Shown piece by piece: positions 53,355 to 62,068 of a stretch of 64,000 nucleotides of DNA; positions within the stretch are counted from its first letter, which is position 1; each line of letters starts with the position of its first letter. The notes beneath the pieces were generated by a model. It saw nothing but the letters and a program-made list of their open reading frames with translations, had not been told where the DNA came from and did not search any database. Position numbers and translations under genes: made by a program. Source of the DNA: Enterococcus malodoratus ATCC 43197 (GTDB taxonomy: Bacteria; Bacillota; Bacilli; Lactobacillales; Enterococcaceae). The stretch spans positions 310,001 to 374,000 of the forward strand of contig NZ_KE136482.1 in the NCBI RefSeq assembly GCF_000407185.1, in the 5' to 3' direction.

Positions 53355-53393
53355 AAAATCCATCTAGCTGAATCGGCTAGATGGATTTTTTTT
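53355..53393. terminator. bidirectional terminator
   Basis: AAAATCCATCTAGC and GCTAGATGGATTTT form a perfect 14-bp stem with T-tracts on both strands. Confidence 0.92.
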
Positions 53394-55608
53394 ATTTCGC
53401 TTTTCGACGGTTAAAAATCAATAAGATACTTGATAGAATCAGCATGCCGATTCCTGCGATAAGATAACTTGGCGTGATTGTTTCACCAGTTTTTGGCAGC
53501 TTGCGAGTTGTTGTGTGTGTACCAGCTGCAGCAGGGTTGCCGGGTTTCTTAGTTGAATTGCCGTCTACGATATTTCCAGCAGCATTTGTTGAATCTGTCG
53601 TTGTGGATTCAGCGGTTGCGCTAGTATCAGTAGTTGACGTTGAATCACTGCTAGTAGTTGTATCGGTCGTTGGTGCCGTTTCAGCTTTGTAGACGTAAGT
53701 TATTGTTTGCGCTTGATCACTAAATTTGCCTTTAGCATTTTTAGGAAGCTGATCTTTGTCTAAGATATACCCCTTGATAGTTGGCTGGTACTTTTCATCA
53801 GAAAAATCAAAGGATTCACCAAGTTTACCCGTTTCAACTTGTTTCTTATGGATTTCTTTGCCAGTTGAATCGACGTATTTGATTGTGACAGGTTTTACTT
53901 CGGCCTTATCAATGACTGTTACTGTTGCCGTCGCGGTAGCTTGATCGCCCGACCAGCTTCTGTTAGGAACGCGGCTGTAGGAATAGGTAACTTCATATTT
54001 TCCGACCTTTTTATTATTGACATCATCAACGGCTTTAACGTCGTCAATCGTAATGGGATTCCCATTGGGATCAGTGCCGCCATCGAAATTATCTTTCGCC
54101 GACCATTCATCACCGACAGTGATCGTTGAATCGTGCGCCTTCAGAATAACAGCGTTTCGTTTGTAAACATAGGTAACCGTTTGCGGATCGGCGGTCAACG
54201 TACCGATCATATTTGACGGCAATTGATCTTTATCTAAGGAGTATCCAGGAATTTCTAACTGATATTCTTCAGTTGTTGCATCGTAATCCTTATCCACATT
54301 GCCAGTGATTTTTTGTTCTGGATGGATTGGATCGCCTGCTTCATCGACATATTTGACGGTCACACCTGGCGACTCGATCGTGTGCTGAACGTCAAACTGA
54401 TGCAAATAGGTGCCGGACGAAATGGCGTAAAAAGTGAACCTTTCCGGCGTTTGGTAAGTTCCAGCGGGGTTATTCAACCGTGCATTGTACTTAAAGGTTT
54501 TCAGCTGATTAAATTCTTCCTGTGTTACACCTGAAACTGTAATTCCTTCATCCGTGATAGCTAAGCGACTGCTCGGCAGCTGTTCGCCGTTGAAATCAAA
54601 ATACGTTTGACTGTCACTATTGGAAGTACTGAAGGGTGGAATGTAGCCATCAAAATTAACCATTCGATTCGGCATGATTGAAAAGGGAACAAAGATTGTT
54701 TGCTGCTCTTCATTATAGTTCAAATTTTTGGCATTGATTGCGGTAGCTGGATCATTCCTGCCAGTGTTTTGTCCAAAGGCTGCTAATTGAGTAAGAGCGG
54801 GCATGTGATTGATTGGTTTGAAATCAGTGATTCCGCAAAATTGTACGCGCAGTTCATTGAGCTTGGTCAGTGCAGTGACCGGTTCAATTGTGGTAATCTT
54901 CATATTCGATTCGAAAGTTAAGGATTCCAAATCAGTCATTTTAATGATTTTATCGTAAACACTATCCGTGACACTAGTGCCAGATAGATTTAGACGAGTG
55001 AGTCCAGCACCGAAATTTGGAACGTTTTGATCCGTGACATTCGATCCCATCAGATAGACTTGCTTCAATTTCGGCAGAGCAGTCAATAACGAGAAATCAG
55101 TGATTTGATTATTGGAATTCATATAAAAAAATTCAAGATTTGTAGCTAATTCTAACCCTTTTAAACTAGCGATTGCATTATCAGCATTTTGAATATATAA
55201 ACTAGTGACTTTTGGCATATCCTCTTGAGTCAAGGTTTCTTTTGTCTTGCCGATGGCCTTTGCGACGATCTGCTGCAAGACTGGATCTGGCATCCAATCT
55301 GCTATAGTTGAAGCTCGTGTTTCTGGCATGTTCGTCGTTGAACTTGTTGTTGCTTGCGAACTAGTAACCGAGCTTTCAGTCGTCGAAGGCGTACTAGTTG
55401 AAAGTGTGGTATCCGAATTTATGACAGAACTTGCTGTTGAAGGCACAGTGCTGTCTGTTGAATAAGCGGGAGACGACGTATCAGAAGCGGTCGACTGGGT
55501 GGGTTCAGCAGTATCAGTCGTTGCTTCCGCCGCACTTTTTAATGGCAGGCCTGAAAAAGTACCTAATACCATAGAGTGGGCAAGTAATATATATAAACTT
55601 TTCTTCAC
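53392..55608 (-). CDS. LPXTG surface protein with leucine-rich repeats and MucBP domains
   Basis: 738 aa sortase substrate. Signal peptide 1-27, then a Ser/Thr-rich stretch to about 98, leucine-rich repeats (about 125-285, e.g. LKGLELATNLEFFYMNSN, LTRLNLSGTSVTD), a beta-rich domain, MucBP 1 (PGVTVKYVDEAGD, ending VTYVYKR), an Ig-like domain with ITVGDEWSAKDNF, MucBP 2 (VTIKYVDSTGKEIH), a Thr/Ser linker and LPKTGE near 705 with a hydrophobic anchor and RRKAK tail. The layout is internalin-like and suggests adhesion to mucin or host surfaces. GTG start with AAGGAG. Confidence 0.93.
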   Translation of the reverse strand: MKKSLYILLAHSMVLGTFSGLPLKSAAEATTDTAEPTQSTASDTSSPAYSTDSTVPSTASSVINSDTTLSTSTPSTTESSVTSSQATTSSTTNMPETRASTIADWMPDPVLQQIVAKAIGKTKETLTQEDMPKVTSLYIQNADNAIASLKGLELATNLEFFYMNSNNQITDFSLLTALPKLKQVYLMGSNVTDQNVPNFGAGLTRLNLSGTSVTDSVYDKIIKMTDLESLTFESNMKITTIEPVTALTKLNELRVQFCGITDFKPINHMPALTQLAAFGQNTGRNDPATAINAKNLNYNEEQQTIFVPFSIMPNRMVNFDGYIPPFSTSNSDSQTYFDFNGEQLPSSRLAITDEGITVSGVTQEEFNQLKTFKYNARLNNPAGTYQTPERFTFYAISSGTYLHQFDVQHTIESPGVTVKYVDEAGDPIHPEQKITGNVDKDYDATTEEYQLEIPGYSLDKDQLPSNMIGTLTADPQTVTYVYKRNAVILKAHDSTITVGDEWSAKDNFDGGTDPNGNPITIDDVKAVDDVNNKKVGKYEVTYSYSRVPNRSWSGDQATATATVTVIDKAEVKPVTIKYVDSTGKEIHKKQVETGKLGESFDFSDEKYQPTIKGYILDKDQLPKNAKGKFSDQAQTITYVYKAETAPTTDTTTSSDSTSTTDTSATAESTTTDSTNAAGNIVDGNSTKKPGNPAAAGTHTTTRKLPKTGETITPSYLIAGIGMLILSSILLIFNRRKAK

Positions 55609-56354: not shown

Positions 56355-56571
56355 TTCGAGTCGCTCCTTACATGATATCTATCTGGTTGTTATTGTATGA
56401 TAACCACTCTGGAAAGTGAATTAGAAGCTTCTATTAAGGAAACGTTTAGTCTAGTAAATTTTTCATAAACTGTTTTATAAGCAAAATTAAAGAAATTAGG
56501 ATTATTTACGAAAGGTTTTGATATTTAATGGCAAAATAAGTAGTATTCGTTGTGAAAGTAAATATAAGAAA
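56355..56571. other. intergenic stretch before the M-box
   Basis: AT-rich. It must hold the methyltransferase promoter (minus strand) and the M-box promoter; TATAAG near 56563 may be the -10 of the latter. I see no gene or repeat here. Confidence 0.5.
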
Positions 56572-56735
56572 ACTTGTTAGGTGAGGCTCCTAAACAAACA
56601 TAGGCTATTGCGCAGAAACGTCGAAAGACGCCAATGTGTAAAATAGGAATTGTCGGATTAAGGCTTTTCATAAAATAGCTAAGAGTAATTTCTTTACGTT
56701 GTTTAGTGCTAAAACTCAGACGATGAGATTGTGTG
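56572..56735 (+). ncRNA. M-box magnesium riboswitch (ykoK leader)
   Basis: The conserved blocks are present in order: GTTAGGTGAGGCTCCTAAA (56576-56594), AAACGTCGAAAGACGCCAATG (ending about 56636), GGATTAAGG, and GTGCTAAAACTC (56706-56717) followed by ACGATGAG. These match the B. subtilis mgtE leader as I remember it. High Mg2+ should fold the aptamer and favour the terminator just downstream. The next genes are ftsW/rodA-like and not a magnesium transporter. Confidence 0.92.
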
Positions 56736-56786
56736 AGACGCCAAACTTGTTAGTTCTTTTTGCTAACGTTTGGTGTCTTTTTTTTG
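56736..56786 (+). terminator. riboswitch-controlled terminator
   Basis: AGACGCCAAAC(TT)GTTAG pairs with CTAACGTTTGGTGTCT, then eight Ts, directly after the M-box and about 55 nt before the first gene. ACTTGTTAG in the left arm repeats the sequence at the start of the M-box. Confidence 0.9.
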
Positions 56787-56847
56787 AGGTTATTTACAGT
56801 GGACTCTCTCGTCTCGAACAGTTGCTTGATGAAGGGGAGAGATGAAC

Positions 56848-57990
56848 ATGATGAAAAGAAAACAGATCGATTGGCTATTGTTGTTGCCCTATTTAGGGAC
56901 TAGCTTAATCGGTCTTTTAATTGTCTTCAGTGCGAGTTCATACCGCTTAATGGCAGCTGGAGAAAATCCATTGTCGTTATTCAGCAAGCAGGCCATTTTT
57001 ATGGTGCTCAGCTGGCTGGTCATCGCAGTGATCTATCGCGTCAAAAGCGATGTTTTGCTGAAGGGAAGACCCGTCAAGATTTTATTGGGCATTGGGTTAT
57101 TCAGTCTGTTGCTGGTAAAAATAAGTGGTGTGAGTATCAATGGCGCTCAAAGATGGGTATCGTTATTCGGCATCCAGTTTCAACCTTCGGAAGTAACGAA
57201 TGTCGCGTTGATTTTCTACTTGGCTTATTTTTTTCGGAAGAAGCGATCTCGGCACGAGCTGATCACGCCAAGTGTGCTGGTTTTTCTAAGCGGCCTGCTG
57301 ATCTTATTGCAGCCGAAGGTTACGGGGGCGATCATTCTCTGGATCGTTGCGCTAGTGATTATTACAACGGCTCAGCTTCCGTATCAGCTGACCGTGATCC
57401 TCTTTTTGGCTATTTTTCTAGGAATTGCACTGGTAGGAGGGATCATTCTTTTTTTGGGAAGTCATTCTCTTTTGCCTGAACTGTTTGCTCATACCTATGA
57501 TCGGATTCGCTTGGTTAGAGATCCTTTTTTAGATCCTTATGGCAAAGGATTTCAAATGAGCAATTCCTATTACGCCCTCTATAACGGCGGATTTTTTGGT
57601 CGCGGATTGGGCAACAGCATCACTAAAAAGGGCTATCTGCCTGTTGCAGAAACGGATTTTGTGTATTCGATTTTGATCGAGGAGCTCGGTGTGATTGTCG
57701 GACTTATTGTGCTGGCGCTGCTCTTTGTGATCGCACTTCGTCTATTTGTTCTGGCTGCCAAAGAACCAAGCCAGCAGGTGAGTTTGGTTTATTTCGGGGT
57801 CGGAACCTTATTGCTGATTCAGACGAGTATCAACATTGCGAGTATTCTAGGGCTGATTCCTATGACGGGGGTCCCATTGCCGTTTATCAGTTATGGGGGC
57901 ACGAGCTACCTGCTGCTCTCAGTGGCCTTAGGCGTCTGCCTAAAATTTTCTTCGGAGGTTCGACCACATGTTGAAACGCTTAAACAATGA
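56848..57990 (+). CDS. FtsW/RodA-type SEDS protein, first paralogue
   Basis: 380 aa with about ten membrane segments. SEDS features are QRWVSLFGIQFQPSE, RDPFLDPYGKGFQMSNSYYAL, ETDFVYSILIEELG and PLPFISYGGTSYL. The usual QPDxGT tract reads QPKVTGA, with Asp changed to Lys. SEDS proteins polymerise lipid II glycan strands with a class B PBP; none is nearby. ATG 56848 is better spaced from GGGGAG than ATG 56842. Overlaps the next gene by 23 nt. Confidence 0.9.
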   Translation: MMKRKQIDWLLLLPYLGTSLIGLLIVFSASSYRLMAAGENPLSLFSKQAIFMVLSWLVIAVIYRVKSDVLLKGRPVKILLGIGLFSLLLVKISGVSINGAQRWVSLFGIQFQPSEVTNVALIFYLAYFFRKKRSRHELITPSVLVFLSGLLILLQPKVTGAIILWIVALVIITTAQLPYQLTVILFLAIFLGIALVGGIILFLGSHSLLPELFAHTYDRIRLVRDPFLDPYGKGFQMSNSYYALYNGGFFGRGLGNSITKKGYLPVAETDFVYSILIEELGVIVGLIVLALLFVIALRLFVLAAKEPSQQVSLVYFGVGTLLLIQTSINIASILGLIPMTGVPLPFISYGGTSYLLLSVALGVCLKFSSEVRPHVETLKQ

Positions 57991-59119
57991 TTTTAATTAT
58001 GCTTTGTTTTTACCGATCCTGCTCTTTTATCTGATCAGTATCGGCGTGCAATCAATGGCGGCTGAGCTGGATGGGGTCGATGTAAAAAATGTCGTGACGA
58101 AACAAATCATTTTTTGTGTCCTCTCATTGGTCGCGATGATGATAGTCAGTAAAATAAAAACAGCGACTCTATTGAAGTATGCGCCTTTATTTTATGTGCT
58201 TTCACTAGGCGTAATGGCACTTTTGTATTGGTTTTATGATCCTGCCATGTATTCTGTGACCAGTACGAAACGCTGGTTGCGCATCGGCAGCTTTTCTTTT
58301 CAACCTTCGGAGCTAATGAAGCTGAGTTTTACACTTTTTATGGTGCGGTTGACAGTAGTCAATGAAATGCGCTGTCGGCAGCGAAGTTTGAAAAGCGATC
58401 TCTACTTTCTTGGAAAAATCGCGCTTTATAGTTTGCCGACCTTTTTATTGATGTTCATGCAGCGGGATTTTGGAACTAGTCTGGTTTTTATCGCGATTTT
58501 AGGTGCCTTGTTTGTTATTTCGGGTGTTCATTGGAAGATCCTTGCTGTGATCACCGGAAGCGGGGCGGCAATTGGAAGCCTGCTGCTGGTTTTAGTATTT
58601 AGCAAGTGGGGCAATCAGCTGCTTTATGGGATGCATTTCAAAACCTATCAATTGGATCGTGTTCGAGCTTGGGTCGATCCTTTTCAATACCAAGATTCGA
58701 TTGCTTACCAGCAGGTTCAAAGTTTGTACGCTATTGGATCAGGCGGGCTGACTGGTCGGGGCGCAGATCAGGCCGCGGTTTATGTACCTGTGCGAGAATC
58801 CGACATGATTTTTACGGTGATTGGCGAAAGCTTTGGTTTTATCGGCGGAACGATTGTGATCTTTCTTTATTTCTATCTGTTTTACCAGATTCTTTCGGCC
58901 GCGATAAAAACGAATAATAAGGCAAATCTTTACGTGGCGGTGGCCTTCGTTTTTGGCTTGTTGTTTCAAATTTTCGAAAATATCGGAGCCGCGATTGGCG
59001 TTTTGCCCTTAACTGGGATTCCTTTGCCGATTTTGAGTCAAGGGGGAACCTCTCTGATTGTTTTAGGCATTGGTTTGGGAGTCATGATGGGGTTCAAAGA
59101 AAAAACAAGTTCATTTTGA
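57968..59119 (+). CDS. FtsW/RodA-type SEDS protein, second paralogue
   Basis: 383 aa. KRWLRIGSFSFQPSELMK, MQRDFGTSLVF (retaining the Asp), DRVRAWVDPFQY, RESDMIFTVIGESFG and PLPILSQGGTSL are the SEDS hallmarks. GGAGG lies inside the preceding gene, so translation is coupled. It is closer to RodA in tone, but function cannot be told by eye. With its neighbour it forms a tandem pair behind a magnesium riboswitch. Confidence 0.9.
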   Translation: MLKRLNNDFNYALFLPILLFYLISIGVQSMAAELDGVDVKNVVTKQIIFCVLSLVAMMIVSKIKTATLLKYAPLFYVLSLGVMALLYWFYDPAMYSVTSTKRWLRIGSFSFQPSELMKLSFTLFMVRLTVVNEMRCRQRSLKSDLYFLGKIALYSLPTFLLMFMQRDFGTSLVFIAILGALFVISGVHWKILAVITGSGAAIGSLLLVLVFSKWGNQLLYGMHFKTYQLDRVRAWVDPFQYQDSIAYQQVQSLYAIGSGGLTGRGADQAAVYVPVRESDMIFTVIGESFGFIGGTIVIFLYFYLFYQILSAAIKTNNKANLYVAVAFVFGLLFQIFENIGAAIGVLPLTGIPLPILSQGGTSLIVLGIGLGVMMGFKEKTSSF

Positions 59120-59148
59120 AAAATAGTGTGGAAGAAACGAGGATAATT

Positions 59149-60723
59149 ATGCGAAAAAAACTATTTATTGCCAGCGGCGGGGCGCTTTTTGGACTGCTGA
59201 TACTGACAATTGCTGTAACGATGGATGCCCATTGGCTGAAAGGCCTTGATGGCATTTTCATCCAAAATCGATTGCCGAACATTTTTTATTTAACCGCTTT
59301 TGCAGGGGCCACAGCAAAATTGGCTACGATCGGTCCAATGATCATTATTTTTAGTATTTTGGCAATCTTTTTATTGCGGGTCCATCAGCGGACTTGGGTG
59401 ATTTGGCTATTTGGCAATTTATTGTGTGTGAGCGGAGCGGGATTTGTGCTAAAACAATTGATCCAGCGAGCACGTCCCGACCAGCTTCAATATATTGCGC
59501 GTTCCTCGTATAGTTTTCCTAGTGAACATTCTGTGCTGATCGCGACGTTTATCTGTTCGGTGATCTTGCTTTATTCCTTTAGTGAGAAAAAAATGCCGGC
59601 GCTAGTAAAAATTTTATTAGTCCTGTCATTGATCATCATTACCGGCGGCAGAATTTATTTAGGTGTGCATTACAGCAGTGACGTTTTAGCGGGATTATTC
59701 CTTGGTTTCGGTCTGACCTTTGGCAGTGCTGGCCTATTTTATCCCTACTTGAAACCGAATACCATTGGTTTAAGAAGGAGACGAAGAGCGTCAATTTTTT
59801 CTTGGCAAAAAATGTTATTAAGCGGTTTGGCATTTTTAGTGGTGCTGGTTTCAGGTATAAGTGTTTTTGCACTAAAGTTTTATCACAGTTCGCAAAAAAT
59901 GGCGGATTCCATGTATGCACCGGTTGAACGAAAAAATAAACTAAAATCTCCGGAAGCTTCAGAACCTATGAGTATTTTAATTTTAGGGATCGCCAATGAC
60001 GCAAAACGAAAAACAGATTTTCGGGCAAATACGATTATGGTGGCGACCTTGAATAATCAAACAAAGAAAACCACTTTGGTGAGTATTCCTCGGGATTCCT
60101 TCGTGGAGATTGTTGGCGCGGATTATCAGGATAAAATCAACCACGCTCATTCAATCGGCGGACCTGAGATGATTATGGACACTGTTGAAAAATTCTTGGA
60201 CATACCGATCCATCACTATGTATCCGTAAATATGGATGGATTACAGACATTGGTTGACGCGGTTGGTGGCGTAACGGTCGATAATGATTTTGCATTTTCG
60301 GCGGAGGGAATCGATTATCCTAAGGGCAAACAGCATTTGAATGGCTGGGAGGCGTTGCAGTATTCTCGTATGCGATACGAAGACCCAACCGGAGATTATG
60401 GTCGCCAAGGCAGACAGCGGGAGGTCATGGAACTGCTGATTGCTAAAATGCTGTCGACTAAAAGTTTGTTTAGCTACCAAAAGATTTTGGACGGAATCGG
60501 CGAGAACGGCAAGACTGATTTGACCTTTGATCAAATGCAAAAAATCATGACAGGTTATCATTCTTGTCTCACAAAAATCGATAGTCAGCAGGTTCAAGGC
60601 GAAGGGTTCACTGGTGATGGAATAACCGGACAAGACGGGATATCTTATCAACGAATTCCACAGGAAGAGGTGGATCGTGTAGAGACGATCCTGCATAAAC
60701 AATTGAATGTAGCAAAAAATTAG
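59149..60723 (+). CDS. PAP2 phosphatase fused to a LytR-CpsA-Psr domain
   Basis: 524 aa. Residues about 1-210 are a membrane PAP2 domain with KQLIQRARP (102-110), PSEHS (124-128) and GGRIYLGVHYSSD (166-178), as in undecaprenyl-diphosphate phosphatases. A further membrane segment (about 226-245) leads to an extracellular LCP domain (about 275-420) with VSIPRDSFVEI, KINHAHSIGG and QYSRMRYEDPTGDYGRQGRQ, the ligase that attaches teichoic acids or polysaccharides to peptidoglycan. ATG 59149 has GAGGATAA. Third gene of the M-box operon. Confidence 0.9.
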   Translation: MRKKLFIASGGALFGLLILTIAVTMDAHWLKGLDGIFIQNRLPNIFYLTAFAGATAKLATIGPMIIIFSILAIFLLRVHQRTWVIWLFGNLLCVSGAGFVLKQLIQRARPDQLQYIARSSYSFPSEHSVLIATFICSVILLYSFSEKKMPALVKILLVLSLIIITGGRIYLGVHYSSDVLAGLFLGFGLTFGSAGLFYPYLKPNTIGLRRRRRASIFSWQKMLLSGLAFLVVLVSGISVFALKFYHSSQKMADSMYAPVERKNKLKSPEASEPMSILILGIANDAKRKTDFRANTIMVATLNNQTKKTTLVSIPRDSFVEIVGADYQDKINHAHSIGGPEMIMDTVEKFLDIPIHHYVSVNMDGLQTLVDAVGGVTVDNDFAFSAEGIDYPKGKQHLNGWEALQYSRMRYEDPTGDYGRQGRQREVMELLIAKMLSTKSLFSYQKILDGIGENGKTDLTFDQMQKIMTGYHSCLTKIDSQQVQGEGFTGDGITGQDGISYQRIPQEEVDRVETILHKQLNVAKN

Positions 60724-60809
60724 CAGGTAATTGATGAGAACTGTTTATCAAAGTCGTCAATGTTTGATTAAATCATTCAGTGGAATAATTAATCCAACCG
60801 CTAAATAAT

Positions 60810-60837
60810 CTGACTATTTACAAAGTTGCGCTATAAT
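60810..60837 (+). promoter_or_regulatory. promoter of the TauE/SafE pair
   Basis: CTGACT, 16 nt, TATAAT (60832-60837), 24 nt before the gene. Confidence 0.6.
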
Positions 60838-60860
60838 GGCAACAGAAAGGGCGGGAAGTT

Positions 60861-61709
60861 ATGCTTAGTCAGATAGGGTTATTATTAGTGACCGGTGTAT
60901 TGGCCGGTATTTTAGGATCGATCTTAGGGATCGGCGGAGGAATTATTTTGACGCCTTTTTTGACGTTGATTATGGGCCTGGATATCAAATATGCAATTGC
61001 CGCAAGTATTGTTTGCGTCATTGCGACGAGTTCAGGCGCGACGATCGCTTATTTGAAAGACGACATGCTGAATCTGCGTGTGGCGATGTTTTTGGAAATC
61101 GCGACGACAATCGGAGCGATTGTTGGGGCGCTGCTTTCAGGGGTGGTGCCGACCGGTTTTCTATTTATCTTATTCGGCGGATTTTTACTTTTTTCAGTCA
61201 GCAATATGATCCAAAAATTACGCGGGAAAGCGAATAAGCAAGTTAAAAAGGCAACAGAGGATTCGCTGGCAGATAAGTTGAAACTGAATGGTTCTTACTA
61301 TGATAAAGTTTTAGAGGAGCAGATCGATTATCAAGTCGAAAAAGTGCCGGGTGGTTTTGCGATGATGTTTGGTGCAGGGATCGCTTCGGGGCTGCTGGGA
61401 ATCGGTAGTGGAGTATTCAAAGTGACGGCAATGGATACAATCATGAAAATGCCGTTGAAGCCTTCAAGTGCCACCAGTAATTTAATGATGGGGGTCACCG
61501 CAGCGGCTTCTGCGACGGTCTACTTTTTCAGCGGAGCGATCTTACCGCAAATTGCGGCACCTTTAGCTTTAGGTGTTTTAGTCGGCGCAACGATTGGCTC
61601 TCGGATTATGCAGCGCTTGAAACCAATTGTTATTCGACTGATTTTTATTCCGATTTTATTGTTTATGGGAATTCAAATGGTACTGCGCGGATTCGGGGTG
61701 ATCATCTAA
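60861..61709 (+). CDS. TauE/SafE family sulfite/anion exporter
   Basis: 282 aa with about eight membrane segments. LGIGGGIILTPFL and SGLLGIGSGVFKV are the paired Gly-rich loops of the family, one in each half. Members export sulfite, sulfoacetate and similar organic anions. The exact substrate is unknown. It overlaps the DUF1634 gene by one base (TAATG). Confidence 0.9.
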   Translation: MLSQIGLLLVTGVLAGILGSILGIGGGIILTPFLTLIMGLDIKYAIAASIVCVIATSSGATIAYLKDDMLNLRVAMFLEIATTIGAIVGALLSGVVPTGFLFILFGGFLLFSVSNMIQKLRGKANKQVKKATEDSLADKLKLNGSYYDKVLEEQIDYQVEKVPGGFAMMFGAGIASGLLGIGSGVFKVTAMDTIMKMPLKPSSATSNLMMGVTAAASATVYFFSGAILPQIAAPLALGVLVGATIGSRIMQRLKPIVIRLIFIPILLFMGIQMVLRGFGVII

Positions 61710-62068
61710 TGGAAGACAAAGAAAAAGCAGAGATTCTGAAAATCGAACGGTCGATCGGCTATATTTTGCGGATTGGCGTGATTGTTTCGGCGACGATTAT
61801 TCTGATTGGTATGATTTTATTATTCTTTCAACCAAGCACAGCGCAAGCACCGAATAGTTTGCCGCTGATTTTTCAAGGTTTGATGCAATTGGACGGGCAA
61901 GCCTTCATCATGTTGGGACTTTTTTGCCTGATTCTAACGCCAGTCTTGCGAGTAGTCGTATCCATCTTCGCTTTTGCGAAAGAAAAAGATTATTTATATG
62001 TGGCGATCACGATCATCGTACTGGTTATTCTGATTATCGGTATGAGTCTGGGATTAGTCGAAAAATAA
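61709..62068 (+). CDS. DUF1634 membrane protein
   Basis: 119 aa with three membrane segments and the ERSIGYILRIGVIVSATIILIG start that I associate with DUF1634. It is regularly paired with TauE/SafE genes, probably as an accessory subunit. Translation coupled to the exporter. Confidence 0.88.
   Translation: MEDKEKAEILKIERSIGYILRIGVIVSATIILIGMILLFFQPSTAQAPNSLPLIFQGLMQLDGQAFIMLGLFCLILTPVLRVVVSIFAFAKEKDYLYVAITIIVLVILIIGMSLGLVEK

Follow-up and report, generated by a model that had tools for sequence, protein, structure and literature searches.

Why should a riboswitch that senses magnesium stand directly before genes that polymerize the cell wall? M-boxes are regulators of magnesium transport and act as Mg2+ OFF switches, yet in Enterococcus malodoratus ATCC 43197 an M-box precedes two genes for SEDS glycosyltransferases and a third for a fusion of a PAP2 phosphatase with an LCP transferase, and the unit holds no magnesium transporter. 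The locus lies in a stretch of 64,000 nucleotides (NZ_KE136482.1, positions 310,001 to 374,000 of the forward strand; herein referred to as the window, whose own numbering we use). A known switch and known enzymes meet there in an unexpected pairing, which is real and conserved and forms part of a probable regulon linking magnesium and the wall, to which the pbp5 operon also belongs. We think it probable that the element is a transcription-terminating M-box, serving as a Mg2+ OFF switch for an accessory and possibly magnesium-sparing wall-synthesis set. The features on which the argument turns are the following.

56518..56546, + strand: promoter-like site TTGATA-17-TAGTAT, sigma-70-like (consensus scan, 9/12 matches)
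56566..56734, + strand: M-box Mg2+ riboswitch aptamer, RF00380 (156.9 bits against a gathering cut-off of 44)
56736..56785, + strand: predicted expression platform, an intrinsic terminator with a 17-bp stem and U8 (RNAfold, -20.7 kcal/mol)
56842..57990, + strand: SEDS1, FtsW2-type SEDS glycosyltransferase, 382 aa (PF01098, 252.5 bits; residues; tree)
57968..59119, + strand: SEDS2, RodA-type SEDS glycosyltransferase, 383 aa (PF01098, 238.4 bits; residue)
59149..60723, + strand: PAP2 phosphatase-LCP transferase fusion (PF01569, 56.8 bits; PF03816, 173 bits)

A Full-Length M-Box with a Terminator-Type Platform

The M-box (ykoK leader) at 56566-56734 is the sole gathering-level Rfam match within the 64-kb window and covers the whole model (positions 1-169 of 169); its E value of 5.5e-36, together with M-boxes at orthologous positions in dozens of genomes, rules out a false or chance match. 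Downstream of it a hairpin of 17 pairs (56736-56778, -20.7 kcal/mol by RNAfold) runs into eight U residues, and this expression platform is predicted to be able to stop transcription; a simple consensus scan, which allows no bulge, does not list it. An earlier first-pass annotation of this DNA had called the M-box by eye and described a strong terminator after it, and both calls are borne out, the former by the RF00380 match that the annotation itself had proposed as a check. RNAfold applied to the aptamer alone did not reproduce the native three-dimensional M-box fold and was given no weight. Because a terminator-type platform is here combined with a Mg2+ OFF switch, read-through at low Mg2+ is implied.

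The 5' arm of the terminator contains an 11-nt copy (AAACTTGTTAG) of the 5' P1 strand of the aptamer, a length that 0 of 100 shuffles attained, which suggests that the P1 3' strand of this leader could pair with either the aptamer 5' strand or the terminator arm. Upstream of the aptamer, the TTGATA-17-TAGTAT site is a candidate promoter only, because such sites are not clearly commoner in the region (12) than in shuffles (mean 9.0). The first start codon, at 56842, lies 107 nt past the aptamer. The window M-box thus resembles known M-box riboswitches in joining a full-length aptamer to a terminator-type platform and differs from them in its target genes, which encode wall polymerases and an LCP enzyme instead of a transporter; the known pump targets, MgtA and MgtE, also stand behind M-boxes in the same genome or its family.

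An Accessory Three-Gene Wall-Synthesis Unit

Both SEDS proteins carry PF01098 and, by motif, the catalytic-type aspartate of extracellular loop 4 (Asp272 in SEDS1, Asp279 in SEDS2). Neither reaches the cut-off of the corresponding equivalog (259.7 against 337.5 for SEDS1 with the FtsW model TIGR02614, and 235.3 against 336.7 for SEDS2 with the RodA model TIGR02210), and they are therefore accessory paralogues and not housekeeping proteins; a separate housekeeping-type FtsW, with 37% identity to SEDS1, is encoded elsewhere in the genome (G000:C1:144303-145430). The "QPD" motif of SEDS1 reads QPK (Lys159). In the third protein the PAP2 motifs KxxxxxxRP, PSxH and (S/G)RxxxxxHxxxD are located at 113, 135 and 178 (numbered from the TTG start), and the LCP domain scores 173 bits against a PF03816 cut-off of 24.6; of the two aspartates of the LCP Mg2+ site (Cps2A D234 and D246), the second is replaced by asparagine (RANTIM).

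SEDS1 and SEDS2 overlap by 23 nt. The open reading frame (ORF) of the fusion begins at TTG 59116, with a 4-nt overlap with SEDS2, and has an alternative start at ATG 59149, which is the likelier one because it is preceded by a GAGGA Shine-Dalgarno sequence. The tightly overlapping three-gene set without a magnesium transporter that the earlier annotation had described is therefore present, the second overlap holding with the TTG start. The stretch from 56842 to 62068 holds five genes, none of them for a penicillin-binding protein (PBP).

Conservation and Regrouping across the Enterococcaceae

The genome of E. malodoratus has five M-boxes, which stand before two MgtA-type pumps, the window unit, a stand-alone LCP gene and an ABC permease/ATPase pair.

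C1:833754: M-box, then a GNAT gene, then one for an MgtA-type ATPase (L065)
C1:122319: M-box before a second MgtA-type ATPase
C2:366566: the window M-box
C2:174640: M-box before a stand-alone LCP gene
C2:171957-172125 (L067:11973-12121): M-box before genes for a double permease (585 aa) and an ABC ATPase, both of nitrate/taurine-type families

The permease/ATPase pair at C2:171957 is an unusual M-box target.

RF00380 matches occur in 101 of 105 Enterococcaceae genomes. From the same 105 genomes we chose, as the best non-housekeeping matches of a SEDS1 search, 54 FtsW2-type loci, and 51 of these have a same-strand M-box at most 1.24 kb upstream. The distance is 78-131 bp in 35 of the 51 and 298-1239 bp in the other 16, all of which belong to genus g13; in the seven g13 loci that we mapped, an LCP gene occupies the interval between M-box and SEDS1, and it is intact in four (G090, G071, G073, G085). 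In the remaining three (G070, G072, G076; L146, L080, L079) that gene is shortened, fragmented or missing while the M-box and SEDS pair are kept. One further genome, G075, falls outside the 54 loci, both of its matches having <39% identity, and carries an M-box-LCP-SEDS1-SEDS2 unit (L249).

Among the 150 best-scoring M-boxes of the family, to which, and not to the family as a whole, the following counts refer, 80 stand before genes for SEDS, LCP or PAP2 proteins or before psr-pbp5, and a magnesium transporter follows 66. Beyond the 51 linked to SEDS1 there are 99, made up of two from the E. malodoratus genome (C1:833754, MgtA; C2:174640, LCP) and 97 loci fetched for inspection, which divide into 62 before an MgtA pump, 28 before LCP, PAP2, SEDS2 or psr-pbp5 genes, three before MgtE (assigned by Pfam in L241 and by clustering in L243 and L244) and four without a class (L210, L218, L239, L242). 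In two of the last four, L239 (G025) and L242 (G001), the M-box is not directly followed by any clear gene of appreciable size. We scanned 144 distinct M-box leaders, and 119 showed a hairpin of -10 kcal/mol or stronger followed by a U-run. In L224, L229 and L222 the M-box lies 9-96 nt from the start codon of a PAP2-LCP gene and the scan found no terminator; these M-boxes may act on translation instead. Other arrangements include M-box-MgtC-GNAT acetyltransferase-MgtA (L173, L174, L188, L192 and similar; Pfam on L188, the others by clustering) and an M-box followed by an LCP gene and then by pyridine-nucleotide oxidoreductase- and Mga-type regulator-like genes (L235, L238 and L240, from G080, G087 and G079; Pfam on L240, the rest by clustering).

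The members of the set are also found regrouped, each group with its own M-box. G002 has two divergent M-boxes, one leading to SEDS1 alone and the other to PAP2-LCP; three E. mundtii-type genomes have an M-box-psr-pbp5 unit (without a full ftsW) separate from M-box-SEDS1-SEDS2-PAP2-LCP; and both E. villorum and G025 carry M-box-ftsW-psr-pbp5 at one place and M-box-SEDS2-PAP2 at another, with SEDS2 split into two ORF pieces in E. villorum. These comparative findings, the 51 of 54 loci and the separate M-boxes, strongly support the view that an M-box controls a dedicated wall-synthesis set.

A tree of 61 SEDS rows unites the 35 M-box-linked SEDS1 proteins (99/99) and separates them from 10 canonical FtsW proteins, and four SEDS1 genes without an M-box (G001, G513, G095, G023) fall within the M-box-linked part. 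Outside the Enterococcaceae, where class- and order-wide samples (398 and 395 genomes) were searched with SEDS1 only, one other family has similar SEDS proteins; all 29 of its genomes carry M-boxes, and in G521 alone does one lie close before a listed SEDS match, in the order M-box-LCP-SEDS. In nine genomes of other families, an M-box is present in three and in none of these near a listed SEDS match (it lies ~450 kb from the match in G598 and on another contig in G620, and G347 has no listed SEDS match).

The pbp5 Operon of Enterococcus faecium

The same kind of switch stands before the operon of the low-affinity PBP. In all six E. faecium-group genomes examined (G022, G024, G025, G026, G030 and G034, the last being E. 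villorum) an M-box of 145-153 bits directly precedes ftsW-psr-pbp5, and the same arrangement occurs on the E. faecium plasmid NZ_CP065930.1 (138.9 bits). In E. hirae and E. faecium the three genes are reported to share one polycistronic mRNA (PMC5059904). The operon is like the window unit in having the M-box directly before ftsW and an LCP gene after it, and its ftsW belongs to the same tree group as SEDS1 (99/99); it differs, in the mapped loci, in having no RodA-type gene, an LCP gene without PAP2 and a terminal PBP5 gene, whereas the window unit has no PBP.

A recent study (PMC13148053, 2026) reports a search of 250 bp of DNA leading up to ftsW in E. faecium that yielded a palindrome, GAAAAGGT-N5-ACCTTTTC, and a promoter, TCGAAA-19-TATATT, with its elements 101 and 76 nt ahead of the start. 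Both occur in L075 at exactly the stated positions, where they fall inside the hairpin of the M-box terminator and immediately behind it; we suggest that they be re-read as that terminator. The words "riboswitch", "Mg2+" and "magnesium" are absent from the main text of PMC13148053, which also describes nusG and rpoB mutants with more PBP5 in which operon transcripts are not raised, and "magnesium", "terminator" and "leader" are likewise absent from the text of PMC11077988, which deals with ftsW/psr/pbp5 constructs. The first-pass annotation had pointed to an M-box before wall genes, which stands; the link with psr-pbp5 emerged only with the present analysis.

Counterparts in E. faecalis and Listeria

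The pair of polymerases itself has described counterparts. In E. faecalis, ftsW2-rodA2 (OG1RF_11070-11071) is an adjacent pair of FtsW-type and RodA-type SEDS genes, as in the window; the pair is reported to be controlled by CroR, its two products to polymerise lipid II in vitro and to be back-ups for FtsW, and "metal availability" is offered as a guess at the role of the extra SEDS proteins (PMC12724132, 2025). Genome G001, which is probably E. faecalis (the catalytic Asp275/Asp281 match those of E. faecalis FtsW2/RodA2), differs from the window in having neither PAP2-LCP beside the pair nor an M-box before it; two of its M-boxes stand before an MgtA-type gene ~2 kb downstream of the pair and before a PAP2-LCP gene. 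In Listeria, the operon lmo2689-lmo2686 encodes FtsW2 and RodA3 alongside a Mg-type ATPase (PMC6686043) and thus has the FtsW2-type and RodA-type pair of the window, together with a pump, which the window unit lacks, and a fourth gene whose function is given as unknown. An M-box upstream of mgtA (lmo0818) is reported for Listeria in passages that do not mention lmo2689 (PMC12824596).

What the Switch May Be For

We hypothesize that with ample Mg2+ the aptamer would fold and the terminator would halt transcription in the leader, and that when intracellular Mg2+ falls RNA polymerase would read through into the accessory unit. Its products would be an FtsW2-type and a RodA2-type SEDS polymerase and the PAP2-LCP fusion, the last of which would attach a glycopolymer to peptidoglycan and recycle the undecaprenyl pyrophosphate released. 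The unit would share an enterococcal Mg2+ regulon with the pumps of the MgtA type and, in the genomes of the E. faecium group, with ftsW-psr-pbp5. Its likeliest purpose would be to continue wall synthesis with enzymes less dependent on Mg2+ than the housekeeping ones.

Several properties of the enzymes bear on that purpose. PAP2 phosphatases are not known to need divalent cations, and we take the QPD-site residue of SEDS1 to be, by motif, the equivalent of E. coli RodA Asp159. This residue is aspartate in 10 of 10 canonical FtsW proteins and lysine (20) or asparagine (4) in the 24 M-box-linked SEDS1 proteins compared, out of 35 in the tree. The undecaprenyl pyrophosphate phosphatase UppP/BacA is reported to require divalent cations (PMC5852022), glycosyl transfer by E. 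coli RodA-PBP2 to be insensitive to EDTA, unlike that of GT51 class A PBPs (PMC10449877), and LCP enzymes to be Mg-dependent, with Mg2+ bound by two aspartates (PMC7831098, PMC11337229). At the second of these positions (Cps2A D246 by alignment) all 45 PAP2-linked LCP rows (40 fused, five adjacent) have asparagine and all 29 rows without PAP2 keep aspartate; some species are represented twice (by genome and by named locus), and there are 23 distinct motif segments that carry Asn and 25 that carry Asp. One LCP gene beside a PAP2 gene (L140, G051), which lacks the SxxRD anchor, was left unclassed. Taken together, the RodA result, the use of PAP2 against UppP, the LCP asparagine and the SEDS1 lysine suggest, by analogy, an enzyme set that may need less Mg2+.

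In its fullest form this would be a magnesium-sparing programme in which metal-independent SEDS proteins replace the metal-needing class A PBPs, PAP2 replaces the cation-needing UppP and the LCP enzymes do without one Mg ligand, with ftsW-psr-pbp5 of the E. faecium group under the same switch, so that beta-lactam-tolerant cross-linking would be tied to magnesium starvation; we put this forward tentatively, as something that may well prove otherwise.

A number of observations weigh against the proposed explanation, in part or as a whole. The metal independence of SEDS proteins is known for E. coli RodA-PBP2 and not for FtsW2. SEDS2 keeps the aspartate at the QPD-equivalent position, and the RodA-type gene thus shows no magnesium-sparing sign; the M-box-controlled LCP proteins without PAP2 (psr, LCP414) keep both aspartates of the metal site; and FtsW2 relatives without an M-box also have Lys or Asn at the QPD site. 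The residue patterns therefore cross M-box boundaries and track protein families and not the switch, for which reason we treat the magnesium-sparing reading as a hypothesis. An M-box is absent at three of the 54 FtsW2-type loci (G023, G001, G095), and in G001 it is the very pair matching E. faecalis FtsW2/RodA2 that lacks one. The P1-strand repeat in the terminator stands out in only nine of the 144 leaders (clearly in the window and in G010, L068), so most leaders must use other pairings; we do not claim P1-strand mimicry as a general antiterminator mechanism. A promoter-lacZ fusion of Listeria lmo2689 is reported to be unchanged by MgSO4 or EDTA in rich BHI and to respond to beta-lactams and moenomycin, the operon lying in the CesR regulon (PMC6686043), a result that holds for the promoter fragment, which may or may not include an M-box. 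The earlier annotation had tentatively placed an ftsW-like pair near a magnesium ATPase in Listeria, and this proves right in gene content, the fusion giving no response to Mg or EDTA. Finally, we found no expression data in the literature on the window M-box or on any enterococcal M-box.

The alternative that survives best is control in two layers, in which stress kinases would set initiation and the M-box would pass transcripts at low Mg2+, because wall damage and Mg2+ shortage are supposed to coincide in nature, while the enzymes would be ordinary back-ups without any special metal property. It accords with the back-up role of E. faecalis FtsW2/RodA2 (PMC12724132) and with the reported rescue by Mg2+ of B. 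subtilis wall-elongation mutants including rodA (PMC10336097), but it leaves unexplained the Asn for Asp at the LCP metal site and the change at the SEDS QPD site, and we are doubtful of it.

Somewhat less likely still is that the M-box works but serves to retain or redistribute Mg2+ through changed attachment of anionic glycopolymers, with the SEDS proteins supplying matching peptidoglycan. This comes close to the view of the first-pass annotation, which had proposed that low Mg2+ turns on a dedicated envelope-remodelling set; M-box control of the wall set is upheld by the 51 of 54 loci, the ON state at low Mg2+ would follow from known M-boxes and the terminator, and "envelope remodelling" is plausible, the magnesium-sparing set fitting some enzyme details better. 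Apart from the SEDS1 units, LCP/PAP2 genes are indeed the main non-transport targets (the class of LCP, PAP2, psr-pbp5 or SEDS2 accounts for the 28 of 97 loci above), and some M-box LCP/PAP2 units, such as C2:174640 in the same genome, have no SEDS gene; yet many units hold SEDS genes and six E. faecium-group genomes the PBP5 transpeptidase, neither of which makes anionic polymer, and no polymer-synthesis genes were seen in the mapped units.

We consider it very unlikely that envelope-stress control of the promoter (CroRS, CesRK) is decisive and the M-box a low-effect leftover of an ancestral magnesium-pump operon: CroR or CesR control is reported for E. faecalis ftsW2-rodA2 (PMC12724132), the E. 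faecium pbp5 operon (PMC13148053) and Listeria lmo2689-2686 (PMC6686043), the Listeria fusion is indifferent to Mg and EDTA and the E. faecalis-like G001 has no M-box at its pair, but a leftover should decay, yet aptamers of full length persist across genera, several of them represented, with 138.9-165.8 bits among those wall-linked units for which an Rfam score was at hand, the terminator is kept in 119 of 144 leaders, and M-boxes precede separate psr-pbp5, SEDS2-PAP2 and PAP2-LCP units, one functional set behind one type of switch in varied groupings, which a relic does not easily explain.

Neighboring Genes

TauE and DUF1634 genes come next downstream of the fusion, as they do in many close relatives. 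We set them aside as members of the unit: their own promoter-like site lies at 60810-60837, and they are missing downstream in L070, L092 and L093. The opposite flank of the M-box region, past a small methyltransferase gene, encodes at 53392-55608 on the - strand a 738-aa probable cell-wall-anchored surface protein with an LPKTGE end and, by eye, leucine-rich-type repeats.

Magnesium and the Enterococcal Wall

A full-text literature search found no paper linking an M-box with ftsW and none combining ykoK, riboswitch and Enterococcus faecium; most subscription papers lay outside its reach, so a table may list such an M-box. Over half of the best 150 M-boxes of the family (80/150) precede wall-synthesis genes, and the link offers a direct test of the "metal availability" guess for the extra enterococcal SEDS proteins. 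It also places a metal-sensing switch before the main beta-lactam resistance operon of E. faecium; if this is true, magnesium in the medium or the host could affect PBP5 levels, which would bear on susceptibility testing. More generally, our results suggest that at low magnesium enterococci turn to a different set of enzymes to build their wall.

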